DNA of 64,000 nucleotides from assembly GCA_026018925.1 (NCBI GenBank), contig JAKSZU010000029.1, positions 9,771,378 through 9,835,377 of the forward strand, read 5' to 3'. The notes under the pieces were generated by a model, which saw nothing but the letters and a program-made list of their open reading frames with translations, was not told the DNA's origin and searched no databases. This DNA comes from Tupaia tana. Its lineage: Eukaryota > Chordata > Mammalia > Scandentia > Tupaiidae. How positions within the stretch are numbered: position 1 is the first letter of the stretch; each line of letters starts with the position of its first letter. Shown here piece after piece: positions 18,611-63,880 of the stretch. The position numbers and the translations under genes are program-made.

Positions 18611-19746
18611 CTAAGTATTAAAACATGTCTTTTGTTGCTGCAGGGCTTGATATTGTTGCCAAAGCATGAGAACGTGAACAGCACTAACATGTTCGCTGAT
18701 GAAAGAAACTAAACGGTTTAAGATGCAGGGCCCAAGGGTCAGGATAAGGAGGAGTATTATTAAGGGGCCAAGCAACGTAGAAACTAGGGTGGTTAACCAA
18801 GGGGAGCGGTTATACTAGTTTTCAAACTATCCTTGTTGAGACTCTCGGTCTTTGTGTCTGGAGTCTAGCCGTTCCCTGAGCTTAGACATCGAGTCCAGTA
18901 CAAACCCAGAGTGGTCAGCATAGAAACAGCATTGTTTATTTAAAGCAGCACATAAGCCTCCTTCTTTTAGAAATAAGAGATCTAGGCCCCACCTATTTTG
19001 CAAAACTACCTCAGAAAGAGAGGTTAGAGATTCTTGGAGTTTAGTAATAGAGCCTTCTATGGCCTGTAAGTCATTATCTATGGCTCGTTGAAGGCTGTCT
19101 AAATACTGGGGAGTCTGGATAAGGGCAGCCGTACCTGTACCAATCCCAGCAGAATCTCCCATACCCAATAAGATTGTCAAGGTTACAGAAATAGGTTCCC
19201 TTTTTTGTCTATAATGGGCATGGTCAAATTGAGTTTTAAAGCTGTCTGAGGCATAGTAGAGGATTTGTGGGAGGATCTGCACTAGAACACAGTAGTCAGT
19301 TTCAGGATTAAACACCGAAGTATGTATGCAAGGGGTTAAACCAGTGTTATAAGCCCACCAACGTCCGGAAGGAGGAACTAAATAAGTATCTGTAGGGTGT
19401 TTAACAGAAGCAGTTATATTACATAAGTACAACTGATCCGTGGGCACCTTGCCAAGGCAGGTGCCTTGTCCAGAGACCGAGGTCAAGGTAAGAGTAGTGT
19501 TCCAGCTACAGAGGTGGGAGGAAGGTAAAGTAATATAAGGAGGACTTGAAGCTAAGCATAGTTAATTTAGGGCTGGAGGAATTTAGGGCTGAAAAGGCTC
19601 CTCGCACTAAGTCAGAGTCTCTGTCTGGTGCCTAAGGGGGCTGTCCGGGTAGTTATGTTAATAACATGGTTATTGCCCACCCGGGGAATTACCCAAGAGA
19701 GGTCCCGGGGCTGGTGGGGGTTAACAGTACTTATCAGAGGCAGCAT
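18611..19746 (-). pseudogene. env: env remnant: signal/SU start, SU C-terminus and TM
   Basis: An ATG at 19,746 overlaps the end of pol, as is usual, but this frame stops after 44 codons at 19,614. Most of the surface subunit is absent. From 19,486 a 219-codon open frame gives the SU C-terminus, a basic RQKR furin-type cleavage site, a fusion-peptide-like hydrophobic stretch, a heptad region, and the conserved immunosuppressive-domain-like segment with its following CX6CC motif (residues about 170-192). Two in-frame TAG stops (18,829-18,827 and 18,817-18,815) precede sequence still coding a hydrophobic anchor and cytoplasmic tail, ending at 18,611. As it stands, no membrane-anchored envelope is encoded. 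Confidence 0.9.
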
Positions 19747-21480
19747 CGCCAGCAGAAGGAACAGGATGTTCCTGGCGAATGTGGAGTTTGAGGGTTTTTT
19801 TTAGTTTTTCCAGCTTCCAGGTGGCATCCAATGGTGGTGCCAGCTTAACATGAGATGCATGGATCCAGGAGGCGACGCCATCAACTTTTATTGCTGTAGG
19901 GGTGGTCAGCAACACCAGGTAGGGTCCTTTCCATCGAGGCTCTAGGTTTGCCACACGATGTCGTCGGATGTACACCAAGTCTCTAACCTGGAATCAGTGA
20001 GGCACTTGAGTTTCTAGGCCTCGGCGAGTTGACTCCAGATCTCCTTTTGCACTGTTTTAAGGGCCTTTAGCCTGGTGTAGAGGGATTGAGAAAGGTGAGA
20101 ACTAGAGAGAGGAAAATTCATAGCCGTAAGTGGGGGCGGGGCCCCGTACAGAATTTCAAAAGGAGTTAGGTTACAAGGTCCAGGAGTGTTCCATACATGG
20201 AACAGGGCGAAGGGAAGGAGGACTGTCCAGTCTTTTATGCCAGTCTCTAAGGTCAATTTAGTCATGGCCTCTTTTAAGGTTCTATTTATACGTTCTACCT
20301 GTCCTGAACTTTGGGGTCTATATGTACAGTGTAATTTCCAATTGGACCCCAGGATCCTGGCCAGTCCCTGACTGATCTGGGCAATGAAGGCAGGGCCATT
20401 GTCAGATCTGATAGCGAGGGGCACCCCAAATCTTGGGAAAATTTCTTCCAGAATTATTTTAGCAACAATTTGAGCAGTTTTCTTTTTTGTGGGGAAAACT
20501 TCAACCCATCCTGAAAAGGTATTAATCAGTACTAGCAGATATTTAAGGCCATATTTGCCTGGTCTTATCTCAGTAAAGTCTATTTTTCAGTAGCTTCCTG
20601 GGCGATCCCTTCGGAGCCATTTTCCTGGTGGCATTTTATTTGGGCAGGCATTAACCAATTGGCAAGGTTTACAGTCTTTTATTGTAAAAGTTCTGACTGG
20701 ATTTTCTTCATCTAGGACTGTTGTTGATTGGACCTGCAATATGTTAAGTCCTTGGGTGGCTCGCTTAGCTGCCTGGTCAGCTCGCCGGTTCCCTTCTGTC
20801 ACCTGGTTGTTCCCCTTTTGATGTCCTGGACAGTGGATAATGGCCACTCGTTTGGGGAGATGCACAGCTTTTATCAGGTTTAAAATTTGTTTTTTGTATT
20901 TTATGTCCTTGCCTGCCGAGGTTAATAAGCCCCTGTGGCTATAGATAGCCCCATGAATGTGTGTGGTAGCGAAAGTGTACCGACTGTCTGTGTAAATATT
21001 GATAGTCCTTCCCTCAGCTAGGCGTAGGGCTTGCGTTAAGGCTATAAGTTCAGCCTTTTGAGCAGAAGTTCCCTCAGGTAAATTGCTTACCCAGATGATT
21101 TGTTCATCATCCATTACCACCGCCCCAGCCACCCTTTTACCTTCCATGAGGTAGTTGCTCCCATCCGTGAACCAAGTTAATTGGGCATCCGGCAAGGGTT
21201 GGTCCTGAAGGTCTCGTCGAATTCCAGTCTCTTCCGCTAGGATTTCTCGGCAGGTATGGATGACTGTTTCTTGAGCCGAAGTGTCGGGCAGCAGTGTGGC
21301 AGGGTTAAGAATGGCCGGCGGTCCAAACTGGACTCTGTCCTTGTTTAATAAAAGGCTCTGGTAGTGGGTCATGCGAGCGTTAGATAGCCACCGGTCAGGA
21401 GGTTGTCAAACTATGCTTTCCAGAGCATGGGGTGCAACGATTAGTAACTTTTGCCCCATAGTTAACTTATAAGAGTCCTT
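19721..21480 (-). pseudogene. pol: pol remnant: connection, RNase H, integrase
   Basis: Three open segments are present. 21,372-20,587 covers the RT connection and an RNase H domain with its four acidic residues (D in FTDGS, E in KAELIAL, D in YTDSRY, D in NRRADQAA), then a short C..C remnant of the integrase zinc finger. After a stop, the integrase core continues: D in 'IDFTE' near 20,575, D in SDNGPAF near 20,400, E in QVERINR near 20,285. The frame 19,978-19,721 is the integrase C-terminal domain, ending inside the env start. The protease, the RT fingers/palm with the YXDD motif, and the HH half of the zinc finger are missing. Confidence 0.92.
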
Positions 21481-21489
21481 TACCTTTCC

Positions 21490-22647
21490 TTAACTACAAT
21501 GGCCAGGATCCGAGCTAGGTTTTTCTCTTGTTTCTTCCCTCTCTTTTTCTTTCCTTTTTTTTTTTTTTTTTTTCTCTTCTGTCTCCCTTTTATGATATAC
21601 CTTTTTTGTCTCTTTAACTAAGTTTTGCAAAGAGAAATCTTGTAATCCTTCTAACCTTTGGAGTTTTTTCTTCAATATCAGGTGCTGATTGACCAATGAA
21701 GGCCATAGCCATTGAGGCCCGTTGTCCCTCTGAAATAGGGTCAAACGGGGTAAACCTTTTAAATGCCTCCATGAGGCACTCAAGAAACACTGAAGGGGGC
21801 TCAGTGGCTCCTTGCATAATTTCTTTTACCTTTGCCAAATTGGTGGGATGCCTTGCGGCCCCATGGAGGCCAGCCACTAGAGCCTGGCAATAGACTGTCA
21901 GTCGCTCCCTACCTTTTGCCGTATTGAAGTCCCAGTCAGGTCGGGAAAGAGGAAAAGCAGCCTCAATAAGGTTAGGGAGCTGAGTGGGCCGCCCATCAGG
22001 TCCGGGGATGCTTTTTCTGGCTTTTAACAGGATTGTCTCCCTTTCTTCTGTAGTAAAGAGGGTCTGCAGGAGCTGTTGGCAGTCGTTCCATGTTGGCTGG
22101 TGAGAGAACATCAAGGACTCCACTAGGCCGGTTAGGCGCTGGGGGTCCTCGGAGAAAGGGGGGTGATTAGTTTTCCAATTATAAAGATCAGTAGAGGAAA
22201 AGGGCCAGTATTGGAGTGGCTGCAAAGGGGGCAGCCCTTTTTTGGTAACTGGCGGTGGGGGCCCATAGGCTCATAGGGGCAGGGCCACAGTGGTGTATTA
22301 AAACCTGAGAGGGGGTTGGGCGGTCAGGGTGATGTCTGGGAATCCAGGGCCAAACCCGAGAGGGGGGGGGGGGTTTGTATCAGGTTTTGCCAGGTGACGA
22401 TGTACGGCTGTTGGTCTGGATGACTTCTTGGTCCCTTCTGAAAAACAATATCTTTAACAGCAAGAACAGTTTTGAGATCAAATGTACCCTCAGGTGGCCA
22501 TCCGACATTGAAAGTGGGTCATTCAGATGTACAAAACGTTTGTCAAGGACCCTTTCTAATTTCTACAGATAGGTCGCGACCTCTTTCCTTTACTTCAGTC
22601 TAATGTCCAAGAGTCAAATTCAGAGGAGTCATTACAGTCTGTCCCAT
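21490..22647 (-). pseudogene. gag: gag remnant: matrix, p12-like, capsid
   Basis: The start codon at 22,647-22,645 opens with MGQTV, a myristoylation-type gammaretroviral matrix start, but meets a stop at codon 16. Matrix sequence continues in other frames, including a GWP-containing segment and a proline-rich run near 22,360 (a C homopolymer of 9-10). The capsid domain lies in the open frame 22,225-21,614 and has a major homology region around residues 140-165. A charged lysine/glutamate tail at 21,600-21,500 overlaps an 18-nt T tract and then joins pol directly. Nucleocapsid, protease and most RT are deleted at this junction. Confidence 0.9.
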
Positions 22648-29797: not shown

Positions 29798-31325
<1,528 letters not shown>

Positions 31326-32467
31326 CAAATTCCTATATTGTTTTATCTACCAATTTACTCTCCAGTAAGAGTTGTCTCATGTATAACAAGAGTTGAAAGC
31401 TTTGGTTATTTCTACACATCATAAGGTTTTACTTCTTTATACTTTCTCTGGTTACCATAATTTTTTACCTCTGGAAAAAGGATTTTTAATGTTTTTTTAT
31501 AGGGTGTTTCCCTTGTGTGCATTCACTGATGAAAACCGAGATTTTAATTCTGCAATGAGAATTCCTCTTACTCTTTTTATGAATAGGAATTTTCCGCTCT
31601 GTGTTTAAAATCTATTGTAAAAATGATTTTAAAAAATAATTTTTCACATTTTCTACATTTCTAGTGTGCATCTCGTGTGTATCTTCCGCTGAATGAGACA
31701 GTTATACTTTTTGTAAAATGGTTTCTTCCACACCTTAACTATATACTAGGCAATTAGAACTGTCTTGCCACATGCTTTTTCATATTTATTCTATTTATAA
31801 GCAGTCTCTCCCATATCGGTCCTCTTTGGTAGGAAAAAGACAACCATTTCCATAAATAATATTTGAGAATTTATTTTACACTGCTCATGTATATTTCAAA
31901 TATTGGTACTGAAATAATAAGAAATATGGTTCTTTCTCCATAATATGTTACTGTAGCAATTTACATTTCTGAAAACTGAGTGGATTTATTTTGTTCCTTT
32001 ATCCTTCCCTTTCCTATAATACCTTTAACAATATTCAGAATATCTACCTTCCGTCTTCCTATAATTTTACACTGAAAGATTTCCATGTGTCATTTGTTTT
32101 CTCTGTCCTTTTTCTCTTTTCTTTCTTATAATGACGGGTATTGTGTACTGATTCTTTGCTAATGTGAACAGTTTTCTAGATCTTCTATTTGCAGAAGACA
32201 AAAGAACTCTTCTCACTTAAGAAGAAATGTTACTTAGAAAGGACTTGTAGCCAATAAAAATACATACTATTTACCCTAAATATATCATCCTTTAGGCCCC
32301 TTTAAAAAACATATACCCCATTTTTTCACACTCTTATCCCAGGAAAACATTTCTACATTTTTCTAACCTCACCAGTACTAATATTTTGTTTTCCCCTCTC
32401 AATAAAATATTCATTCTTTAAAAGAAAATGCATTACACTAGTCCCTGAAAGTTATGCACTGACTAAC
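31326..32467 (-). pseudogene. decayed upstream fingers and intron
   Basis: 31,330-31,830 on the minus strand holds degenerate finger remnants (linker-like segments near 31,350, 31,500 and 31,670) without open frame. 31,830-32,467 is AT-rich and probably the intron between the KRAB-B and finger exons. Confidence 0.5.
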
Positions 32468-32555
32468 CTGGGAGGCTCAAGCTGGGAAGTTCTTCTAATG
32501 TCCATGGACCTCCTCCTTGCTCCAACTTGAAGATCACTGCAGGTTTGGCAATGGG
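32468..32555 (-). pseudogene. KRAB-B box exon
   Basis: The minus strand encodes KPAVIFKLEQGGGPWT, a typical KRAB B box, and ends at a good donor (CAG|GTTAGT). The acceptor side is unclear: candidate AG sites at about 32,556-32,562 do not give the two-base phase expected after the KRAB-A exon. The exon may be skipped or damaged. Confidence 0.75.
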
Positions 32556-32725
32556 CTGTCTTGTTAATAAATAGCAGTGTGGAATTTTGCCAAACTATTC
32601 ATGTATGATATTTGAAGAGTAACAACTGTTCAGCTTTATCAGCTGTGCAATAAAAGGGCTAATTTAGGCATTTTGTTAAAGAGGAGTGCCACTAACATTA
32701 ACCACAGAATGAAATCTCACTCCTT

Positions 32726-32991
32726 GGGACCAGCAGTTAGCGTAATGGCTGTGTTACTGGACTCCCACATAGTTGACCGTGGTTTGCGTCCCGGAGCCGG
32801 TGGCTTAAACACACGCCGGGTGCATGTGCGTGCGTGCCCAAGATCCCGAGAAGAGAATGGAGGAGAAGGGATTGTGGCATGACCATCCCCCCTGGTGGGT
32901 GATTTCTCACTTTCTGTCTCTCTGTCTCTCTCTGTCTGTCTGGCAAGCACATGTGCCCTATAGCGAAAAACCTCTCCAAAAAAAAAAAAAA
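32726..32991 (+). mobile_element. young long tRNA-SINE in the KRAB intron
   Basis: Near-consensus plus copy, antisense to the zinc-finger gene, between the two KRAB exons. Flanked by a perfect 18-bp duplication 'gaatgaaatctcactcct' (32,707-32,724 and 32,992-33,009). Confidence 0.93.
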
Positions 32992-33099
32992 GAATGAAAT
33001 CTCACTCCTAAAAAGCATTAAACATTATGAAACCTTTGTACATTTACTCTAAAAGGAGACAGTAATTACTTCAGAGAGCTTCATGGGAGTTCCACTAAC

Positions 33100-33226
33100 C
33101 CAACAACATCAGGTTGCTGTAGGTCTCCAGCATCACTTCCTTGTATAGAATCTTCTGAGCATCTTCCAGGTCCTGCCACTCCTCCCAGGTAAAGTCCAGA
33201 GCAACATCCTCAAATGATATGAACCC
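33100..33226 (-). pseudogene. KRAB-A box exon
   Basis: A 127-bp exon, the standard KRAB-A length, with acceptor 'ttttacag' and donor GG|GTTAGT. The product contains the hallmark [13 protein letters not shown] and YKEVMLETY motifs needed for TRIM28 binding. Its own frame is intact, so the repression box looks better preserved than the fingers. Confidence 0.88.
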
Positions 33227-33229
33227 CTG

Positions 33230-33790
33230 TAAAAGTACATTTTCCCTCATCAGCCCTGAGAAATAGAGCATAACATGGCAAATTTACTTTCTCTGTATGT
33301 TTGTGTATGCTTGTTCCTCTGTATATTTCTGAACTCTTTGTAGAGGGAGAAAAAAATAAAGTACAAACATCCTATCTCTTTGCTAACTTATTTATTGCTA
33401 AATATTACAAGTATTTCCTCAGAGATCTCCAAATGTTTTTGCTGCAAGGGATAAAAGCATAACAAATATTCTGCTATGTCAAGGTGTTTATTATCTCATA
33501 CAAACACATGGGTATAAATACATATATGGAGTAATGTGTTAGATTAAGTAAGTTAGACACAAGTTTATAGTAACCTGTCTTAAAAAAATAGTTTTGTTTT
33601 GATTTTTTTTTTTTTTACTTTTTTTTAATGTATTATCAATTTGTGCTTCAAGTCAATGATGTTAGGAACATGTATGTAAATGTTCTTATGAAAATGGAAC
33701 TATAGCAGTCTTCCTATGAAAGCACAAAGTATATTTCTAATATTAATGGGAGTAGAAACAGTATATCTAGGTAAGTATTCCTGGTCTATG
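33230..33790. other. non-coding, AT-rich
   Basis: Upstream intron or flank of the KRAB-A exon. No start-codon exon of the zinc-finger gene was recognised. Confidence 0.4.
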
Positions 33791-43402: not shown

Positions 43403-43416
43403 AAGATTTCAACACA

Positions 43417-46400
43417 ACTTGCCTGCACAGGTGTCCTCACCATAAACCCCCAAGGTGCAAAACCCAGTGGCAATGAGAAAGAGTGGGCATAGAAGGACCA
43501 CATGTCTCAGACATCTTAGAGCTGCATTTTGCCCACAGAGGTGTGCTTTATACCTCCCTTGCCTCACTTTTCTTCCCCCCTTCACCTTATGCCAGGAGCT
43601 GGTGGCAGTAAGAGAGGGAATGCCGAGAGGTAACACGGAAGACAGCGTATCCTGACTTACTGCTGCTGCATTTTCTCCCTCAGCTCCCACCCCACTGCCC
43701 AGGTGTGCATTGGAACCTCTCCCCTGTGCTCCTCAGCCATAGGCCACATGGTGCAGGTGCCTCAGCAGCCAGAGAGTCAGCACAAAACAACCACACCCCT
43801 TAGATGTCTTGCTCAGACCTTTTGCCTGCCTTTCCCATGCACCCCTCTGCCACAAGCGTAGGAGTCAGCAGCAAGAGAGATAGAGAAACAGAGAATGAAT
43901 GTGCAAATTCACACATCTCAGATTTTCTGCTACCTTTTTGCCTGCACAGGTGTGCTTTTAGGGTCCCCCTACCCCACAATCCACCCATGGCATAGAAGCC
44001 CATGGTACAGACAGAGAGAGAGAAAGAGAGAGCGAGAGACTGAAAGAACAGAAAGACCACACTTCTCAGACTTTCAGCTGCTGTCTTTTGCACTGGTGTG
44101 CTTTGGACCCTTCCAAATCTTCAACCTTTTTGCCGTAAATCCTAATGGTGCAGAAGCCAATGGCAGCAAGAGACAGAGAGAGTGAGCACAGAAGGGCAGT
44201 GCATCTCAGATTTCTTGCTGCTGCCTGTTACACTGGTGTGCTTTGGACCCACATCCTTCCCTCATGCTCTGCCACCTTAATCCCTCACTGTGCAGAAGCC
44301 AGAGACAGTGAAAATGAATGAGCTCAGAAGGACCACATGTCTGACTTCTTCCTGTTTCTTTTTGTCCACATATTTGTATAAGAACCTTCCCTTCTCTGCC
44401 ACTCCATTTTCAGCCTCTAAGGTGTAGGAGCCAGGAGCACTGAAAGAGAGAGGAACAGCATGTCTCAGACTTCTTGCTGCTGCATTTTGCCTGTGCAGGT
44501 GTGCTTTGGACCCTTCCTCCATACTTCACCCCTCTGCCATAAATCCTCACATTGCAGGAGCCAGCAGCAGCGAAACAAAGATAAGAATAATCGCAGAAGG
44601 ACCACATGTCTCAGACTTCCTGACGCTGCCTTTTGCCCATGCAGGTGTACTTGGGACTCTCCACAACCTGCACCCCTCTGCCATAAATCTCCAAGGTGCA
44701 GAAGCTAGGGGCAATGAGAGAGACAGAAAGAGTTTGTCTCAGACTTCTTGCTTCTGCCTTTTGAAAGCCCAGATCTGTTTTCGAACATCCCCCACCACCC
44801 AGGCTCTCTACCATAAGCCTCTATGATGCAGGAGTCAGTGGCAGTGAGACAAAGTGAGTGCAGAAGGACTGCACATCTCCAACTTGTAGCTGCTGCCTCT
44901 TCCCTGTGCAGGTGAGCTTTGAATTCTCCCCTGACATATAACTACACCATACACTCCCATAGTGTAGGTGTCAGTGACAGCAAGGGAGGGGGGAAAAAAA
45001 GGGCACAAAAGGATCTTGTATATCCATCTCTGATTTCTTTTCCTCTCTTTAAATTAATAAATTATTTATTTTTCTCATTTCATTTTCTTTTATACATTCA
45101 ATCACATTATTATTTGTCTTACAAAGTGGATTATTTCAACAGGTGAACATTTCTTCCTAGTACAGTTGATAAAACTACAAAATATCTTCAACAGATAATA
45201 CCACACCTCTTTGTGCCATTAATGCTTTGCCTCCCTATGCCTCCCCCAAATGTCCGTCCTCAGACCTTCCTCTTTCACACACACTATATCTGGTATTTAC
45301 AGCTATATACTGTATTTCTATATCCTTTAGTCAATCAGTTTCAGCCATAGAGTGTGGATACTAAGTATATATTAAGTGGGGACATACAATGCCTCTTCAT
45401 CTCTGATTTCCTGCTGCTTCCTTTTGCCTGCCCAAGTGTTCTCTAAACCCTTTCCAGGCTCTGAGTCCCTCTGCTTTAACCTTCCCAGCTTCCAGTGCAG
45501 AAGACAGCTGCATTAAGAAAGAGAGAGAGAGAGAGAGAGCACACACACAGGACAGTGCATCTCAGAAACCTTGCTGCTGCATTTGCCTGTGAAGTTGCAC
45601 TTTGGATCCTCCTCTCCCTACCCTCCCTGGCAGCTCTCTGCCATAAGCCCACAAGGTGAAGGAACCAATGGCAATGAGAGAGAGAGGAAGCATAAGGACC
45701 TTGTATCTCAGACTTCTTGCTGCTGCCGTTTGTCTCCCTGCAGGAGTGCTTTGGGACCTCCCTCACCACCACCCCCAGTCCCTCCACCATAAGCCAACCC
45801 CCTTGAAGGAGCCAGTGACAAAAGAGAGCATCTCAGACTCCTTCATGCTGGTTTTTTCGGTCACAGGTGTACTCTGGACATTCTCTGCACCCTTCCACCT
45901 TAAACTTACACAGTCCAGGAGCCAGCAGCACTGAGAGACAGAGAGAAACAAAAGAACCCCATGTCTGACATCATACTGCTGCCTTCTGCCAGAATAAGTG
46001 TGCTTTGAAATTTCTGTTCCCCACCCCCAGCATGCCTCTGTAATAAGCCTCCAGGTTGCAGGGACCAGGGGGCAGACAGAGAGTCCACCTATGCATGCCC
46101 AGAAGGATAGCACATCTCAGACTTCACACTGCTACCTTTTACCCATGTAGGTGTGCTTTGGACTGTCCCCACACATCACCCCTCTGCCATAAGCCCCATG
46201 GTATAGGAGCCCACAGCATCGAGACAGAATAGAGTGATCACAGAATGACTGCACACCTCAGAGTCCTTGCTGTTGCCTTTTGTCCACACAGGTGTGCTTT
46301 GGACCCTCTCACCACTCGTGTGCCCATCCTCTAGAAGACCTCATGCTAGTCTGAGCCAGGGGCAACAGAGAGTGAGCACAGGAGGGTGGAGCTTCTTCCT

Positions 46401-47575
46401 TCTGCCTTTTGCCCATGCAGGGGTACTTTAGACTCTCCATATCCCATGTCCCTCTGCATTAACCTCCTAAAGTGCATGAATCAGCATTGGCAAGAAAGAC
46501 ACAGAGAGAGAGTGAGTGCAGGAGGATAATTACCTCAGACCTCTTGCTGCTACCTTTGGCAAGTCTAGATGTGCTTTAAAATGTCCCTCACCACTCTGCC
46601 CTCCACCATAAGCCCCCATGGTAAAGGAGCCAGTGGCAGTGAGACAGTGAGAGTTAGCACTGACTTTCAGACTTTTTGTTGCTGCCTTTTCCCTATAGAG
46701 ATTCACTTTGGAACCTTCCTCTCCAGCACCTCTGCCATAGCCCCCATGTGCAGGAGCCAGGGATAGCAAGAAAGAGTGAATGAAGAAGTACCTTGCATCT
46801 GAGACTTCTTGCTGTTGTCTTTTGCCTACATGGGTACGGTTTATAACCTCCTCCTGCCCACACTTCCTCAAGTCCCCACCTTGCAGGAGTCAGGAACAGC
46901 AAGTCAGATAGAGAGCATGAGTGCAGAAGGACCTCATGTCTCAGTGTTCTTGATGCTGCCTTTTGCCTGCATAAGTGTGCTTTTGACCTTCACCACTGCC
47001 TAGGCCCCTCTGCCATAACTGACACAGTGCAAGAATCAGGGGCAGGAAAAAAGAGTGAACACCGAAAGACAGTGCATCTCAGAGTTCTTGCTTTTGACTT
47101 CTGCCTGAGCAGGTATGCTTTGGACACTCTTCCCAATGCACTTCTGCAGCAAGCACTCATGGTGCAGGAGCTAGGAACTAGTAGCAGAGAGAGAGAGAGA
47201 GGAAGAGAGAGAGAGAGAGACAAAGTGAGCCTATTAACTACACATCTCAGACTTCTTGCTGCTGCCTTTGCCTGCACAGCTGTGTTTTTGACCCTTCTCC
47301 CACCTCACCCTGCACCTTAAGCCTCCATGGTTCAAGAACCAGTGAGTGGCAACAAGAGACTGAGCTTCAGCATAGATGGATTGCACATCTCAGACTTCTT
47401 TTTTCTGCCTTTAGCTCAAGCTGGTGTGCTTTCACCCTCTGGCATACCCCCCTCTACCTTAATCCCCCTGTGGTTCAGGACTAAGTGCAGCAACAGAGAG
47501 GCAGGAAGTGCAGAAGGACCAGGCCTCTCAGACTTCTTGCCTCTGCTTTTTGCATGCCTTAGTTTGCTTTGAGAT
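43417..47575 (+). repeat. L1 5' UTR monomer array, ~27 units of ~140 bp
   Basis: Degenerate units recur every 120-150 bp, anchored by 'ctcagacttcttgctgctgcc', then 'ttttgcctgcacaggtgtgc', a C-rich 'cacccctctgccataagcc', 'caaggtgcaggagccagtgg' and a (GA)n-rich segment. I count about 27 anchors, for example at about 43,505, 44,063, 44,463, 44,610, 45,708, 46,112, 46,800, 47,247 and 47,527. Mouse and rat L1 promoters are built from tandem monomers in this way, so this array is probably the element's promoter. The many small open frames in it are artefacts. Confidence 0.88.
45038..45397 (-). mobile_element. inverted L1 3' UTR inserted in the monomer array
   Basis: A 5'-truncated L1 tail in minus orientation. 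On the minus strand it begins 'atgtccccacttaatatat' and includes 'ctctatggctgaaactga', then A-rich sequence, parallel to 54,170-54,470. Flanked by the perfect 13-bp duplication 'catctctgatttc' (45,025-45,037 and 45,398-45,410). Confidence 0.85.
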
Positions 47576-47870
47576 TTTAGTTAGCTGACTTGAACTTCCT
47601 TCTTTATTTGAACCAACCCCAAGTACAACTAATTCTGAGAGATTGAGATAGAAACCAACATCTAAAGCTGGCTACTTATACCCTTCTTGGATTGATAGAA
47701 AAGGCCATATCCCCAAAACACACCTGAGAATTAGAGCTCATCCTCCCCACTAACACTACAGAATCAATATGAAGAAAAAATAAAATATCTCTCCCTCAAG
47801 GTAACAGAAAAATTTCTCAATAAAAGAGTACAAAAGAACTCACAGAAATATCAGAAAAAAAAATACAGAA
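47576..47870 (+). other. non-monomeric 5' UTR linker of the L1
   Basis: Single-copy segment between the last monomer and ORF1, equivalent to the 'tether' of rodent L1s. Starts 'tgagattttagttagctg'. Confidence 0.6.
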
Positions 47871-49130
47871 TGTTCAGTGACAAAACTGAATGAGATGAAA
47901 GAGAAAACAGACAACTATCTCCAGATAAGGAAATCATTCCAAGACCTGAAAAAGAATTCCATAAACAGACAAACACCATAAAAAAGAATTAAACAGAACT
48001 CCTAGAGATAAAGAGTGTAACATAAAAAATAAAAAACATCTCCCTTGAAAGTATTAATAGCAGATTAGACCATGCAGAAGACAGAATCTCTGATCTAGAA
48101 GACAAAGCCATTGACTTAAACAAAACTACCAAAAAGAGTGAAAAAATAACTGTTGGGGACAAAAACCATCCCATGCCTGAGAATTAAGCGAGAAGGAGAG
48201 AATGCAGAAGGGAGTTGAAAGCAACCCCATTCCTAGACAGAAAGCCAAAGGGACTCCATGGCCAACCAGATAGCTCCTGGCATGGGCTGAGTCTCAAGAT
48301 TGTTTGGTGATATTGCACAGCCAAAATACTGTCTAACTACTAAGTTAATGATAGCTATCGATTTTGTACCAAAAACACAGCCTACAAAGAATGTCATGTA
48401 CATTGTATACTGTTCTCTGTAGCTAAACTCACTACTTATTTTATTTAATTTAGAGTAAATGCATTCTGCTTTGGCACAGTATTGCTTCTGCTCCAAGAGA
48501 GCTTTAGCCCCCTCTTTTAACTTTTCCTCATCTCTTGCCTCAATTCTTCATGACAGTCTACCTTTGAGCCCTGAGTTTCTCACAAATAACCTCTCAAAAT
48601 GACGACATACCAGAAATACTAGACACCATTAAACACCCAAATATCTGAATAATTGGTATTCCAGAAAGTGAAGAATATGACTATAGCATTGAAAACCTAT
48701 CCCATGAAATATTTGAAGAAAGCTTTCCAAACCTAGAGAAACATTCAGACATTAGACCCAACAAATACAAGGACCCCAAATGGAATAAACCTAAGAAGAT
48801 TCTCACAATGGTACATCACAGCCAGAATGATCAAAATTGAAAACAATGTTCTAAAAATGGCAAGAAAGAAATGAATAGTTATTTACAAATTGTTTTCCTA
48901 CAAGGGTAACATGAGACCCCTCAACTGAAACAATGCAATCAAGGAAAGAACGAGGAGACATATTCAAAACAGTGAAAGAAAGACAATTTCAACCAATATG
49001 AAACCCTGTGAGATTATCCTTCAAATTAGAAGAACACAAAAATATCATTCCCAGATTAAAACAAAAAAAAAACCTGAAAAAAATTTATCAGCACTAGACC
49101 AGATGTTCACAAAGTACTGAAGGGTGTAGA
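47870..49130 (+). pseudogene. L1 ORF1 remnant
   Basis: Broken ORF1 interrupted by the solo LTR at 48,151-48,584. Segments match the intact ORF1 at 61,896: 'cttgaaagtattaatagcag' (48,040; coiled coil), 'cccaaatatctgaataattgg' type sequence at 48,635 (start of the RNA-binding domain), and the C-terminal 'cactagaccagatgttcac' at 49,094. Multiple stops and frameshifts. Confidence 0.85.
48151..48584 (+). repeat. solo LTR in L1 ORF1
   Basis: A 434-bp unit starting TGTTGGGGAC and ending TTTCTCACA. It splits the ORF1 remnant and is flanked by a perfect 6-bp duplication 'aataac' (48,145-48,150 and 48,585-48,590). TG...CA ends plus a 6-bp duplication fit a class II (betaretrovirus-like) LTR. No internal genes remain, so it arose by LTR-LTR recombination. 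Confidence 0.85.
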
Positions 49131-49486
49131 ATAGCAGGAAAACTAAAAAGACATAAACAAATAAGAGAACAAAACAAACTGGAAAATGTCTAACAAAATG
49201 GCAGTGAAAAGTCAGTAAATATCAATAATTGTGTAGAATGTTAGTGGATTAAATGCTCTAATTAAAAGACACAAATTGGCTGAAGAGATTTAAAAAAAAT
49301 TGCCCTCTATATGCTGCCTACAATAAACACATATCATGGATAAAGATACACATAGACTGAAAGTAGAGGGCTGGAAAAACATATTCCATACAAACGGAAA
49401 TTTAAAGGCTGGAGTCATGATACTGATAACAGACAAAATAGACTTTATGACAAAAACCATAAGAACAATTAAAGAAGGAAACTAGA

Positions 49487-49667
49487 GGGCCAGCAGGTGG
49501 CATGGCAGTTAAGGTACTGGATACTTACAAGGCTGATGATGGTTTGAGTTCCAGACCTGGTGGCCTGCTTTCTCACTTCTCTCTCTCTCTCTTTCACACT
49601 CTCTAGTGAGCACAGGTGCCCTATACCAAGTTAATAATAATAAATGAAATAAAATTATTCATTTTTT
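49487..49667 (+). mobile_element. short tRNA-SINE inside L1 ORF2
   Basis: Head 'gagggccagcaggtggcatgg', 'ggtttgagttccaga', pyrimidine tail, then 'gtgccctataccaagtt' and an AT-rich end. It shares the 'gccctata' end with the long type, so it is intermediate in structure. Confidence 0.85.
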
Positions 49668-50582
49668 AAAAAGGCACTGTGTAGTATTAAAAGTATTATT
49701 CATCAAGAAAATATAGTGCTTATAAATATCTATGCACTCAACACTGGAGCACTCAAATACGTGAAAGAAAGCCCGCTAGATCTAAAGGGAGAGATGGACA
49801 GCGATATGCTAATCAATGGGGATCTCAACATCCCACTGTCTCCTTTGAACAGATCATCTAGACAAAAAATAAGCAAAGAGACACAAAATCTAAACAATAC
49901 CACAAATCAAATGAGTTTGACAGATATCTATAGAACTTTCCAACCAATAACCACAAAATACACATTTTTCAGACCCCCACATGGAACATTTTTGAAGATG
50001 GACCACATGATTGGACACAGAACAATTAAAAGGTACAGAAACTATATCCAGCAACTTCTCTGACCACAATGAAAACAAACTTGAGATTAACTTCAGAGAA
50101 AATCCTTGAAAATACACAAACATATAAAAACTAAATAACCTGCTACTTAATGATGTCACAACCACTGAAGAAATGAAGACTGAAAAAGAATGTATTCAAA
50201 CTAGTGATAATGAACACACGAGTTTTCATACCCTATGGAACATGGTGAAAGCAGTCATAAGAAGTAATTTCATAGTAATTAGTGCTTACAAGAAAAAAAA
50301 AGGGGGGCAATTAGACAAATAATGACACACCTCAGAGAACTGGAAAAACCACAAGAAAACCCAAAAAAAATAACAAGAGAAAAGAAACAATAAAGATTCA
50401 AGCAGAAATAAATAAAATAGGAAATAAACTATGCAGAAAATAAATGAATTCAACATCGGTTCATCAAGAAGATAAAAAATATTGACACACCATTATCTAG
50501 ATTAATCAAGAACAGAAAAAGGAGCCAGGTAAATCAAATTAACAGTGAAACAGGCAATATTAAAACAAGCATAACAGAAATA

Positions 50583-50662
50583 CTAGATTGTTGGAAAAGT
50601 CGTGAGACACGTTTGCATACAAAAACATGAAAAAATATGTCATGACTTTTCTGATGACTTAA
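50583..50662. mobile_element. mariner-like MITE, ~80 bp
   Basis: An 80-bp near-palindrome. The left arm 'gattgttggaaaagtcgtga' pairs with the right arm 'tcatgacttttctgatgac' (reverse complement similar), with TA at each edge. Length and structure match the MADE1-type mini-mariner class, although the terminal sequence differs from human MADE1. Confidence 0.7.
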
Positions 50663-51192
<530 letters not shown>

Positions 51193-52458
51193 AAATACTG
51201 TGAGTGACTATACATCAATGAACAAGAAAACCTGGATGAAATGAACAAAACTTAAGTAAATAAATAAATAAAAACGATGGACAAATTTCTGGACACATAC
51301 AATTTACCAAGACTAAATCAAGAAGACATGGAAAGCCTAAAGAGACCAATAAAAAACAATGGGATAGAATCAGTAATAAATAGTCTCCCAACAAACAATA
51401 GCCCATTTCTCAATGACTTCACTTCTGAATTCCACAGAATTTTTAAAGAGCTCACTCAGTGTACTATTTCTAAAGACCCAAAAGGAATAAACTCCCAAAC
51501 TCATTCTATGAAGCTCCCATCACCCTCATCCCTGAATAGACAAGTACATAACAACAACAAAAAAAACTACAGACCAACATGCCTGTTGAATATAGACAAA
51601 AAATTGTCAACAACTTACTAGCAAACTGTATCCAATGATAAATTTAAAAATTATGCACCATGTTCAGGTAGGCTTTATTCCACAGATGCAAAGGTGATTT
51701 AACATATGTAAAACAAAAAAATGTAATACATTATATTAACAGAAAAAAAGATAAAACTATATGATCATATCAACTGATACACAAAATGCATCTGATAAAA
51801 TACAACATCCCTTCATGATTAAGACTAACCAAAATCAGAATAGAAGAAATTCTTCTCAATACAATAAAAGTAATATGTGAAAAACCCTTAAAAGAGTTTT
51901 CATACTGAGTGGGCAGTAAATGAAATCTTTTCCACTAAACACTGGAACAAGACAAGGCTGCCAACTTTCTCCTTTCTTTTTCAGTATAATGCTGCAAGTC
52001 CTAGCCAATGCAGTCAGACAAGAGAATAAAGTAAAAGATATTCAAACAGGATAAGAAGTAAAATTATCTCTTTTTATAGATGACATGATACATAGAAATC
52101 CAAAGAAATTCACAAAAATAATTCTGAAAGTAATAAATAAATACAGTAAAGTGGCAGGATAGAAAATCAACATACAACATTCTATAGCATTTTTATGTAC
52201 GAATTTTGAACAGACTGAGGTATTATAGAACTGAAAAAAAACAAGTCCATTTATGATAGCCACAAAAAGCATAAGATACCTAGAAATAAAACTAACCAAA
52301 GACCTTTACAAGAAAAATTATTAAAAAACTAAAAGGAAAATTGAAAATGATACAAAATGTGGAATGACATCCCATGCCCTGGATTAGAAGGATTAAAAAA
52401 ATAAAAAAATCTCTTCTACCAAAATTAATCTATATATTTAATGCAGTCTTGATCAAAT

Positions 52459-52859
52459 TACACTGAGTTAGCTCTTTAAAAATTCTGTGGAATTCAGAAG
52501 TGAAGTCATTGAGAAATGGGCTATTGTTTGTTGGGAGACTATTTATTACTGATTCTATCCCATTGTTTTTTATTGGTCTCTTTAGGCTTTTCATGTCTTC
52601 TTGATTTAGTCTTGGTAAATTGTATGTGTCCAGAAATTTGTCCATCGTTTTTATTTATTTATTTACTTAAGTTTTGTTCATTTCATCCAGGTTTTCTTGT
52701 TCATTGATGTATAGTCACTCACAGTATTTTTTTTATAGACACCATAAATTTGTTTATTTTTAACACCCATCATGCCATGAATTCATAGGGAATAGAGTCC
52801 AGTAGCTCAGGCTCCTTTCCATTGGTTTTCACAGAGTGTGCTTCTCTGGGCAGAGCAAG
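52459..52859 (-). repeat. inverted duplication, arm 2 (copy)
   Basis: Reverse complement of arm 1 with about 3 differences in 401 positions. It interrupts L1 ORF2 between the segments 'cagtcttgatcaaa' and 'gatattcttcacagaattag', which are nearly adjacent in L1. It has no A tail or target duplication of its own, so it is not a retrotransposon insertion. Confidence 0.92.
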
Positions 52860-54090
52860 AGATATTCTTCACAGAATTAGAAAAAACAATCTTTTTCTTT
52901 TAATAACCATAAAATTTTACTGGAATCATCAAAAGCCCCACATTGTCAAAGCAATACTACACAAAAAGGAATCTCACTCTCTGACCCCAAAACATATTAC
53001 AGAGCTGTGATAATCAAAACAGTGTGGTACTTGCACAATAACAGGCATGTAAACCAATGGAACAAAATTAATCCTGAAACATGCAGAACTGATTTCTGAC
53101 AAAGGGCATAAGACAAGTCAATAGGGAAAAGAAAATCTCTTTAGTGAGTGGTGTAGGAAAAACTGGATATTCACCTGCAGAAAAATGCAACTGGACCCCT
53201 GTGCCTCACCATTAACAAATTTCAACTCAAAATGGATCAAAGATCAAAACATAAAGCCTCAAACTATAAAACTTCTGGTACAAAATGCAAGAGAACTTCT
53301 TGGAGACATTACAGTAGGCAAAGACTTCTTAAATAAGATCCCCAAAGTACAGGCAATAATCCTGTAAATAGACAAGCAGAATTATATCAGGTTCAAAAGC
53401 TTCTATGCAGCAAAAGACACAATAATAAAAATAAAGAGACAGTCATCAGAATGGAGAACATATTTACAAACTAAGCCTCAGATAAGGGACTGATAACCAG
53501 TATAGGGAATGTCAGCAGTTTACCCCTCAAAAAAAAAGTAAAAAAAAAAAACAAAAAACAAAAAAACAAATCCAATTAAAAGGTAGGCAAGTGAGCTGAA
53601 CAAACAAACTCTCCAAGGAAGACAAACAGTCAAAAAGCATATGAAAAAATGTTCAACATCTCATCATAAGAGACGTGCAAGTCAAAACCACAATGAGATA
53701 CTACCTAACCCCAGTCAGAACAGCTAAGAAAAATAAAAAATGGTTAGTGCTGGTGAGGTTGCAGTGGAAAGGGTATTCTCCTAAACTGTTGGTGGAAAAG
53801 TAAATTAGTTTGGGCATTGTGCAGAACAATATGGAGGTTCCTCAAAAACCTACAATAGAACTACCATATCACTTGGCAATTCTATTCCTGGTTATCTGTC
53901 CCAAAGGACAGAAATACACAGAGTTGGAAAAACATTTGCACATCCATAGTTTTTGCAGCCTTATTTACAATTATTAAGACATGGCATCAATCTAAATGTT
54001 GAAGAACAGATAAATGTGTTGAAAAAGTGTGGCACTTATACACATGAAATACTACTTAGCCATAAAAAAATGAGACCCTGGCATTTGATA

Positions 54091-54474
54091 GAAAATTGAC
54101 AAACATTGAAGATTTAATGTTAAGCAAATCAGGTCAGACTATGAAAGTGAGGCATTAGATGTCCCACTTACTAGATACTGAATGTTTGCGCTCTATGGCA
54201 GAAACTGAAAGATTCAAATGTATAAAGGCATGGAGAGCAACTGTGGATACCAAAGATAGCATGGGGAAAAGATGGGTAATGGGGAACAGGAAGGTAGAAA
54301 TCAAAATTTAAAAAGCAATGCATTTTAGGAACACAAAAATAAAAAATTATCTGTTGATGATAATGTTTACGGTAGTATGTTGGACTGGACTAATATACAG
54401 TGTATTCATGCTGGGGAAATTCATTTTGTGTGCTGTAAAGATCTGCAGTATTTAAATATAACATAAGTAAATAA
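54091..54474 (+). other. L1 3' UTR
   Basis: From the ORF2 end through 'gagagcaactgtggatacc', 'tggggaaaagatgggtaatgg' and 'gttggactggactaatat' to the A-rich end. Provides the reference for the inverted L1 tails elsewhere in this window. Confidence 0.8.
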
Positions 54475-54488
54475 AAGATTTCAACACA

Positions 54489-61141: not shown

Positions 61142-61372
61142 TGAGAAGATTCCACATGGATACTGGGGACTAGATATTTCAGGGCACAGGAGAAATGAAG
61201 ATTTTCTACTCATAATTCAGCCTCCAGCAAGCAAAGCTAGTGTGGCAGGAGAGTTGAGCCATTCTCTGAGAAGATTCCACATGGATACTGGGGACTAGAT
61301 ATTTCAGGGCACAGGAGAAATGAAGATTTTCTACTCATAATTCAGCCTCCAGCAAGCAAAGCTAGTGTGGTA
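61142..61372 (+). repeat. tandem 125-bp units in the HAL1 5' UTR
   Basis: The unit starting 'tgagaagattccacatgg' begins at 61,142 and again at 61,267, almost identical until about 61,370. Its tail 'ggcaggagagttgagcc' recurs once more at 61,558-61,580 before 'tgagaagattctgg'. This looks like a short promoter-monomer array, with sequence different from the 140-bp monomers at 43-47 kb. Confidence 0.9.
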
Positions 61373-61895
61373 GGGACCCCCTCTGGCCTTCTATCTCTGT
61401 CTCTGTGTCTCTGAGGTCTCTGTGTCTCTCTGCTCCTGTCTCCTCATTTTTTTTTGGTAATTTTTCCTTTTTACGATTTTTTTAAAGGTAGAATTTCTCT
61501 CTGGCTCTCAGCTCCATCTTTTGTTTTGTTAATAATCCCTTCTGCTCCTTTCTCCCAGGCAGGAGAGTTGAGCCATTCTCTGAGAAGATTCTGGTTTTCT
61601 ATTCTGTGATTTTTTTCTTTAAAAAAAAAAAGAAAAGCAATTATAATTTTTTATTTTTTTGTCTTTTTTCTCTCTTTTTGTTGTTGTTTCTCTCTCTCCT
61701 TTTCATTTTCCTTTTTCTTGTCTCTCCACCCAATATCTACTGAATCTGCTGCACCAGCGATCACAACAGAACGGCAATCCGATTCTAGAACACCTCTGTC
61801 TGCTTGCTCCTGAACATTGAGGCTTAACTTCAAGAATTTGAAAGAAACACGCCATTCATCAGATGACAAGAAATCACCGTCGGATCACGAGAAAT
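61373..61895 (+). promoter_or_regulatory. HAL1 5' UTR, non-repeated part
   Basis: T/C-rich leader containing runs such as 'ctgtctctgtgtctctgagg', a short A run at 61,620 and the ORF1 approach. No TATA box. A promoter role is inferred from L1 biology only. Confidence 0.5.
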
Positions 61896-62864
61896 ATGGG
61901 AAAACGAGAAAATACCTCTCCTCCAATGGAAAAGAGTAACTCTCCTTCATCCACAAGCAGTTCGGTGAAAGTCATGGAAATGTCTGATAAGGAATTTAGG
62001 ACATTCGTAATGTCGAAGCTAACAGAGATGGAAGAAAAGAGAGATAATGAACTGCTAAAGAGAAAGGAGAAAGAAGTTGCCGAGTTCCAGGAGATGAGGA
62101 AATTCTTGCAAGATCTAAAAGAGGAATTACACACTTTACAAAAGACTCAAACGGAACTGCTAGAGATGAAGTCTATAATACAAGAAGTCAAAATCTCCCT
62201 TGAAAGTATTAAAAGCAGACTAGATCATTCAGAAAATAGAATCTCAGATGTAGAAGAGAAAATGGCTGGCTTAGAAAAGTCCACCACGAAGACTGAGAAA
62301 ATGGCTCAAAAATTTGAGAATGATATGCGAGAAGTACTGGATACCATCAAACGTCCAAATATCCGGATAATTGGCATTCCAGAAGGTGAAGAGACCCATA
62401 AGGGCATTGATAATCTATTCCATGAAATCCTGCAAGAAAACTTTCCAAACCTAGAGAGGCATTCGAAGATCCAGTCCCAGGAAATACAAAGGACCCCAAA
62501 TAGAATCAACCCAAGAAGATCTTCTCCAAGACACATTATAGCCAGGTTGACCAAAACCGCAGACAAAGACAAGATAGTAAGATTGGCAAGAGAGAAACAT
62601 CAAGTTACCTACAAAGGACATCCCATCAGGCTAACAGCAGATCTCTCATCGGAAACAATGCGAGCGAGGAGAGAATGGGAAAATATATTTAAAGTGTTAA
62701 GAGACAAGCAATTTCAGTCAAGAATACTGTACCCAGCAAGATTATCTTTCAGGTGGGAAGAAAAGACAAGAACATTCTCAGATAAACAAAACCTAAAAGA
62801 ATTTACCAGCACCAGACCAGATCTCCAAGAAGTTCTCAAGGGTGTGCTGTATCAAGAAAATTAA
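61896..62864 (+). CDS. ORF1 protein of the HAL1-like element (intact)
   Basis: Encodes an L1 ORF1p: an RNA-binding chaperone that trimerises, coats element RNA in cytoplasmic particles and assists target-primed reverse transcription. I choose the Met at 61,896 (MGKRENTSPP), giving 322 residues, because its context (A at -3, G at +4) is better and mammalian ORF1p starts MGK. The open frame extends 11 codons further, to 61,863 (333 residues). Order, in the 333-residue numbering: Ser-rich N-terminus, long coiled coil with heptads (about 42-155; DKEFRTF, ESIKSRLDHSENRISDVEEK), RRM domain starting RPNIRIIGIPEGEE (about 164), ARLTK (about 227), and a C-terminal domain with YPARLSFRWEEKTRTF and STRPDLQEVL. 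Human ORF1p has 338 residues. No stop or frameshift is seen. No ORF2 follows. Confidence 0.9.
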   Translation: MGKRENTSPPMEKSNSPSSTSSSVKVMEMSDKEFRTFVMSKLTEMEEKRDNELLKRKEKEVAEFQEMRKFLQDLKEELHTLQKTQTELLEMKSIIQEVKISLESIKSRLDHSENRISDVEEKMAGLEKSTTKTEKMAQKFENDMREVLDTIKRPNIRIIGIPEGEETHKGIDNLFHEILQENFPNLERHSKIQSQEIQRTPNRINPRRSSPRHIIARLTKTADKDKIVRLAREKHQVTYKGHPIRLTADLSSETMRARREWENIFKVLRDKQFQSRILYPARLSFRWEEKTRTFSDKQNLKEFTSTRPDLQEVLKGVLYQEN

Positions 62865-63841
62865 ACACAGACACACGGAAATAAGAGTCCAAAAACTATG
62901 AAAGTGGCCAACTTAATCAGAGGGACAAGTCTGGATTTGAATATTATATCCCAGAATTTAATCAGGAAAATTGAACCAGAACAGAAGATAAAAGTACATG
63001 AGACTGATAGGTTCATGCACCTTCCATTTGAACAGAATCCTAACTTGTTTCCTGGCTTTAAGCAAAGTTCCTTGGCATTTCTTTGAGTTAAGTTAAAACT
63101 GGTTTTCTTAGTAGTAATGAGTGAACTCACCATTGAAAGTAGTTAGATTATGTAGGAAATTGTGTGATCAATGCAACGTGGGTGGGAAGGGAATGAAGGA
63201 CAATTGTAGACACCGGAGGTGGTGTGAGAGGAAGGTGGGAAGGGACAGAGAGTCAGAAAGAGGGGTGGAAGTAATTCTAGGAACTAGTAATGGAAAATTT
63301 TTTGTAATGTGCATGATTGTATCACTATGCAGTGTGTACTGGATGGGAGATTGCATTTTGTATGCTGTGATGAAGCTTAAGGAAGGAATGTAAATTGAGT
63401 TACAAAAAAAAAAGTTTCAGAAAAAAAAATATATATCTATTCAATGACTGCAGTAGGATATGTAGCCACAGCTAGGTGCCACTTTATAGGATGCGTAAAG
63501 TAAGACTTGTGTTCATGGAAATGTGGGTATCACCTGTGTTTGTTATGAGGGTATTTGGATTGATTAGGGTCTTTGGCATTCCAATAAAATGTGAGGAAAA
63601 AAAAGTATAGAAAGCAAACATAGATACCAGAGACTGTGGGAGGAGAGTGGTTGATGGCAGAGGGTAAGAGATAGAGAATCTAGGATGGGGGGAAAAAAGC
63701 AAAACATACAGAAGACAAGAAATGGAAGATCATTTGCTGACAATAACATGTTTGTTGATGTGCTTGATTGAGACAATATATAGTGTAATTTGGATGGAAA
63801 ATCTCATTTGTATGCTGTAATGATGTTCAGAGAATGAATGC

Positions 63842-63880
<39 letters not shown>
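62865..63880 (+). other. HAL1 3' region with two L1-like ends
   Basis: After a 300-bp non-coding spacer, a first L1-type 3' end (63,170-63,420: G-rich purine stretch, 'gtgtgtactggatgggag', 'tgtatgctgtgatg', short A runs) is followed by a second (63,595-63,880: 'gagactgtgggaggagagtg', 'atagtgtaatttggatgg', 'tgtatgctgtaatgatg', A tail). Both resemble the L1 3' UTR at 54,200-54,474. Confidence 0.7.

Follow-up and report, generated by a model that had tools for sequence, protein, structure and literature searches.

Promoters built of tandem monomers in long interspersed element 1 (LINE-1, L1) are known mainly from mouse, where the monomer is about 200 bp long and the arrays are short. The monomer passages of PMC9022269 report that mouse L1 copies begin within a monomer and differ in how many monomers they have, that the average is 1.5 to 3.7 monomers depending on the subfamily and that seven young loci exceed 10; they also name other mammalian L1s with tandem repeats in the 5′ untranslated region (UTR). 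For the horse, the excerpts of PMC5872511 give about three repeats in L1 type 1 and, for perissodactyls, 5′ UTRs of 305-2,855 bp. Among the open-licence papers listed, no title or abstract opening deals with treeshrew L1 monomers or with an L1 that has monomers by the dozen, and the portion of PMC13174262 used mentions neither the colugo nor L1 monomers. Here we describe an old full-length L1 from the treeshrew Tupaia tana, located at 43417-54474 of a 64,000-nucleotide stretch of contig JAKSZU010000029.1 (from now on "the window"; positions refer to it and to its plus strand unless stated otherwise). Its 5′ UTR is an array of 27 monomers left by deletion from at least 63. The best explanation as a whole, to which we give a probability of roughly 0.55, is a treeshrew L1 whose short array grew in place soon after insertion.

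One L1 insertion with a monomer array

The element lies between perfect 14-bp target-site duplications (TSDs), AAGATTTCAACACA, at 43403-43416 and 54475-54488, 14 of 14 bases being identical; such duplications around the copy are a mark of LINE-1. They enclose the array, ORF1, ORF2 and the 3′ UTR, and the whole is one L1 insertion, which presumably came about by target-primed reverse transcription. The array (43417-47571, the last boundary set from the profile mentioned below plus by eye) consists of a partial first unit, 26 full units and a partial last unit joined to a non-repeated tether of about 200 bp (47572-47769). After subtraction of five later inserts, an array of about 3.8 kb and a body of about 5.3 kb add up to a native L1 of about 9.1 kb. 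A first-pass annotation of the window had already claimed the perfect TSD around array and body, about 27 units of about 140 bp, a length of about 9 kb and a full-length element with monomers in its 5′ UTR. On all of these it was right, and the element lies outside the rodents, in whose L1s it had called such monomers best known.

A scan with a 28-base core yielded 32 candidates, of which 27 unit starts with a score of 7.5 or better were kept (best score in five shuffles 10.0), spaced 118-168 bp apart, with units of about 140 bp; those dropped had scores of 12.5-13 (four weak candidates) or 11.5 (half of a unit that an insert splits). Without the antisense L1 insert (see below) the array measures 3,782 bp. 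The profile was made from 26 units; in 43420-47590 it detects 28 stretches (E 1.9e-36 to 9.8e-9), and in the rest of the window nothing below E 0.0019 (0.86 with composition correction). The mean pairwise identity of the 26 aligned units is 0.60, they differ by 26% from their consensus, and neighbours are not closer to each other than other units (order-permutation p 0.54). Since the units are only about 60% identical, the array was not reported by Tandem Repeats Finder. No relatives turned up in the viral and prokaryotic collections scanned, where one motif match in a bacterial contig looks like chance.

By analogy with mouse L1, each monomer may act as a promoter or enhancer unit. The monomers were also looked at for a YY1 site, which was dropped, GCCAT being kept in 17 of 62 units and the classical consensus fitting none of the 62. 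The idea had come from the excerpts of PMC11602158, which also served as the source for the promoter role.

The monomers are not confined to this locus. With up to three mismatches the 28-base core matches the genome at 373 places, its reversed control at none. Among the first 100 of these matches listed, 15 lie outside the duplicated locus (see below), and eight of the 15 were fetched; they were picked by the monomer motif, so that monomers are expected there. L1 sequence lies downstream of the monomers at all eight, ORF1 at seven of them, while the eighth (C309) leads to ORF2. None has the unique flanks of the window (the matches are short and scattered), and among the eight loci only one upstream piece of 213 bp is common. 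The last partial monomer, about 53 bp long, and after it sequence related to the tether recur at several of these L1s, so that monomers plus tether stand upstream of ORF1 in several independent insertions, which is the mouse-type arrangement; the monomer-tether-ORF1 design is the presumed promoter of an L1 family, and this treeshrew family adds another mammalian order to those with the design.

The many tandem units of about 140 bp could also be those of a stand-alone satellite, into or beside which an L1 had inserted by chance. In that case the TSD should not lie, as it does, at the 5′ edge of the array rather than between array and L1, nor should the last partial monomer and the tether recur at independent L1s or L1 sequence follow the monomers at every independent locus fetched. 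Furthermore, 73 of the 74 matches of a second motif fall on the four contigs that bear the copies of the locus (the remaining one on C619), and none of the 74 listed belongs to another large array. Also among the motif places listed and fetched, which are part of the 373, there is no stand-alone satellite, and we consider this explanation exceedingly improbable. The first-pass annotation had been prepared to give way if no other L1 of the genome bore these monomers upstream of ORF1, or if the array were widespread as a satellite; neither is the case, seven loci having ORF1 downstream of the monomers and the places listed and fetched no stand-alone satellite.

At least 63 units prior to duplication of the locus

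A 401-bp piece of the array was found at 40 full-scale places, all on four contigs, a count that is a lower bound (40 of 182 candidates were scored). This search and that with the second motif together give at least 52 places, each more than 15 kb from the next, on C364, C375, C419 and C531. Of 11 copies fetched, 10 have at least one flank in common with the window and five have both, which is what segmental duplication of one insertion would give. For the eleventh, C419:13.37M (56 units, interrupted), no common flank was found in the stretch fetched. The window contains, on the minus strand at 30106-33283, a KRAB exon and a C2H2 zinc-finger exon. The giant array belongs to a single insertion, which was later carried along when a region with a KRAB zinc-finger gene underwent segmental duplication, and the same L1 helps to date the duplication of this region.

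The profile hits in the 10 flank-sharing copies number 26, 49 (one of which lies in the flank), 24, 24, 24, 27, 31, 25, 31 and 63, most of the fetched copies being interrupted or having lost parts. The longest fetched copy, C419:12.75M, has 63 contiguous units in 8.65 kb, the largest gap being 46 bp and the mean period 139 bp, with the same TSD on both sides of its array (2 and 0 mismatches). Combined with the body of the window copy, this array gives an L1 of about 14 kb.

The arrays of the copies were compared by colinear blocks, pieces below 200 bits being dropped, a unit-by-unit gap-tolerant alignment having been uninformative. They are largely colinear, and each is without different stretches of the 63; the window jumps from position ~3.5 kb of the reference array to ~8.6 kb, with about 37 units missing. 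In stretches absent from the window, C419:12.75M is colinear with C375:2.35M or C419:6.55M at about 79%, over 2.8-3.5 kb. Orthologous units of the copies have an identity of 0.808 (9 pairs), and within the 63-unit array the best unit pair reaches 0.776 and the best block 0.73. As the pairs within the array are less alike than orthologous units and the copies are colinear, the number of at least 63 is ancestral and the 27 units of the window are a remnant.

That the copies differ so widely, from 24 to 63 profile hits in the 10 with flanks, might be taken to mean that the paralogues acquired their long arrays by recent expansion, or by errors of assembly, and that the 27 units are original. Recent growth, however, would have left pairs about 0.808 alike in the 63-unit array, which is above the best pair and the best block observed, and the colinearity between other copies of just those stretches that the window lacks also speaks against it; we judge it very unlikely. 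When the locus was duplicated, the array already had at least 63 units, of which deletion left 27 in the window. The figure of 27 in the first-pass annotation is therefore correct for the window but not for the original element, whose locus has been copied dozens of times. The copies of the giant array at more than 50 places, with their different deletions, preserve in fossil form the growth and shrinkage of a promoter array.

How the array may have arisen

The units of the 63-unit array are about equally distant from each other. Their mean identity is 0.600 (62 units, the last, partial unit of 57 bp being left out), neighbours are not closer (order-permutation p 0.15), and 86% of the length of a unit tree is terminal; from the tree and from the column comparison (see below) the tether-joined unit of each locus was left out. 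A 14-unit block duplication is recognizable (units 36-39 versus 50-53, with a z of 7.8 as against at most 5.25 in 60 permutations), and the closeness of this block shows that some growth was later than the rest. The Jukes-Cantor (JC) divergence of the units is 0.40 (non-CpG, length-stable columns), that between the L1 bodies of this locus and of independent insertions is 0.29-0.45 (global alignments, 1-6 loci per segment, segments covered to less than 60% dropped), and the paralogues differ by 0.17-0.26. Since the units diverge evenly and about as much as independent L1 bodies, we infer that the monomers were near-identical at about the time of insertion.

The array may have grown just before or just after insertion. 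Growth in place is favoured because each of the eight independent loci has only 2-4 monomer profile stretches and because 21 columns separate the consensus of the array from the independent units, against a mean of 9.1 and at most 16 under the null. Compared with the last unit of the reference array, the last partial monomer ranks first at five of seven independent loci and third and fifth at the other two; 14 upstream units of these loci, compared with the units at the corresponding positions, come 6th to 63rd. To judge from these ranks, the last partial monomer is the fixed junction of the family, behind which the upstream units turned over or were homogeneous.

Accordingly ordered, the events may have been these. 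The element would have landed with a short array like that of its relatives; the array would have grown in place soon afterwards by unequal recombination or replication slippage, while its units were nearly identical, and would have frozen as the units diverged. Near-identical units at about the time of insertion were followed by the one block duplication, then by the duplications of the locus and by the deletions. Landing short and growing in place are the least certain part of this explanation.

Several observations weigh against it. A burst of growth that ended early has to be assumed, since slow stepwise growth leaves close neighbours, of which none were seen. The variance of the identities is above a column-shuffle null in both the window and the 63-unit array. 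In the tree, 10 independent units fall among the units of the array and not outside (7 of 68 nodes have a support of 0.9 or more). L1 bodies aligned by BLAST are less diverged (JC 0.27, 14,850 sites) than the units, and some heterogeneity of the units at insertion is therefore possible. Finally, the comparison has no more than 14 independent units, selected by motif, with 6-14 per compared column.

Alternatively, the giant array was already present at insertion, an RNA of about 14 kb having started from a far upstream monomer and having been fully reverse transcribed. The 63 units do lie between the TSDs, their star-like relationship without a neighbour effect is expected if they were near-identical on arrival, and they diverge from each other about as much as independent insertions do. 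Arrival of so long an array is at variance, however, with the few monomer stretches at all eight independent loci, with the lack of a second large array among the matches listed, with the at least one block duplication that is younger than the rest and with the situation in mouse, where in the passages of PMC9022269 the loci above 10 intact monomers are only the seven young ones. We regard it as a possibility to be taken seriously, though not as the probable one; that a treeshrew L1 retrotransposed as an element of about 14 kb with about 50-63 near-identical promoter monomers is doubtful. If true, such an arrival would by far exceed the L1s described in the literature passages cited and would point to a lineage with runaway monomer number. 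The first-pass annotation had gone so far as to let the whole array move in one transcript. The array is indeed inside the TSDs, but its movement in one transcript is not established, because TSDs bound the array without dating its growth and because the fetched members of the family are short.

Remains of the body, later inserts and known systems

Downstream of the tether lies a decayed ORF1 (47770-49146, limits approximate, by alignment to an intact ORF1 at 61.9 kb). It matches solved ORF1p weakly (E 0.0066) and no Pfam family; at the DNA level it shares 65-70% identity with the intact ORF1, which matches ORF1p with E 3e-63. The decayed ORF2 (49220-54100, limits by eye) retains parts of the endonuclease (49653-50060), the reverse transcriptase region (51268-51618) and the C-terminal part (53125-53364). 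Three ORF2 pieces match residues 99-213, 427-542 and 927-1003 of L1 ORF2p in the Protein Data Bank (PDB), which identifies the ORF2 as that of a LINE-1; for a fourth, C-terminal piece no match turned up, and the RVT_1 piece scores below Pfam's cut-off. The 3′ UTR with a short A-rich end (54100-54474) was delimited from the sequence, its start by eye.

The intact ORF1 (333 amino acids) belongs to an ORF1-only, half-L1-like element at 61142-63877 inside a short interspersed element (SINE), with a 15-bp TSD AAAACTCATGCCGGG and, by eye, no ORF2; its 5′ end is a tandem repeat of about 125 bp (86%) unrelated to the monomers of the array. A protein filed under Streptomyces narbonensis (P0002), encoded on a 2.3-kb contig, is 97% identical to this ORF1, and the record is probably a contamination.

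Into the array an antisense L1 3′ fragment of 360 bp was inserted (45038-45397, minus strand; 13-bp TSD CATCTCTGATTTC at 45025 and 45398); copy C375:2.35M is uninterrupted at this site. A solo long terminal repeat of 434 bp with the 6-bp TSD AATAAC sits in ORF1 (48151-48584), its site being uninterrupted in C364:5.20M. ORF2 contains a SINE (49480-49680, limits by eye), one of many similar ones in the window, and an RPL21 processed pseudogene (50676-51189; Pfam Ribosomal_L21e, E 2e-10), for neither of which a TSD scan found a duplication; one SINE searched in Rfam gave nothing. The pseudogene is absent from C364:5.20M, C531:124.534M and C419:12.75M. The fifth insert (52446-52859, in another delimitation 52462-52857; minus strand) is a late inverted duplicate of 51063-51477 (98% identity over 415 bp) that holds part of the L1 and the end of the RPL21 pseudogene, about 1 kb downstream of its source. 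It is lacking in C375:198k, C419:7.84M, C419:13.15M and C531:124.534M, and is a recent local templated insertion. Thus four of the five inserts, the SINE being the exception, are missing from at least one paralogous copy that is continuous across the site; from this comparison, hits no longer than 100 bp, hits overlapping SINEs and hits below 73% were dropped.

Elsewhere in the window, at 18827-22270 on the minus strand, open frames resemble gag, pol and env fragments from an endogenous retrovirus (label by eye). The genome contains a mitochondrial contig of 16.8 kb with a cytochrome b that matches Tupaia montana and T. tana at 98% identity, which points to Tupaia and replaces the colugo that the SINEs had first suggested as host. 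In the genome, a nuclear cytochrome b match (C220:64716337-64716642) scores equal to the mitochondrial contig and is probably a recent mitochondrial insertion.

The treeshrew element resembles the mouse L1 subfamilies A, Tf and Gf as described in the monomer passages of PMC9022269 in the succession of tandem monomers, non-repeated tether and ORF1; it differs in the length of the monomer, about 140 bp, in monomer number, 27 and ancestrally at least 63, and probably in monomer sequence. With horse L1 (excerpts of PMC5872511) it has tandem repeats in the 5′ UTR in common, and the treeshrew stands outside the list of L1s with 5′ UTR repeats in the passages of PMC9022269. A short tandem repeat that has grown inside a transposon is also known from satellites and minisatellites derived from transposable elements (excerpts of PMC9659126). 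Unlike these, the treeshrew array has not been seen to spread as a satellite and stays within a single L1 copy and the segmental duplicates of that copy; it carries a known promoter design to an extreme.

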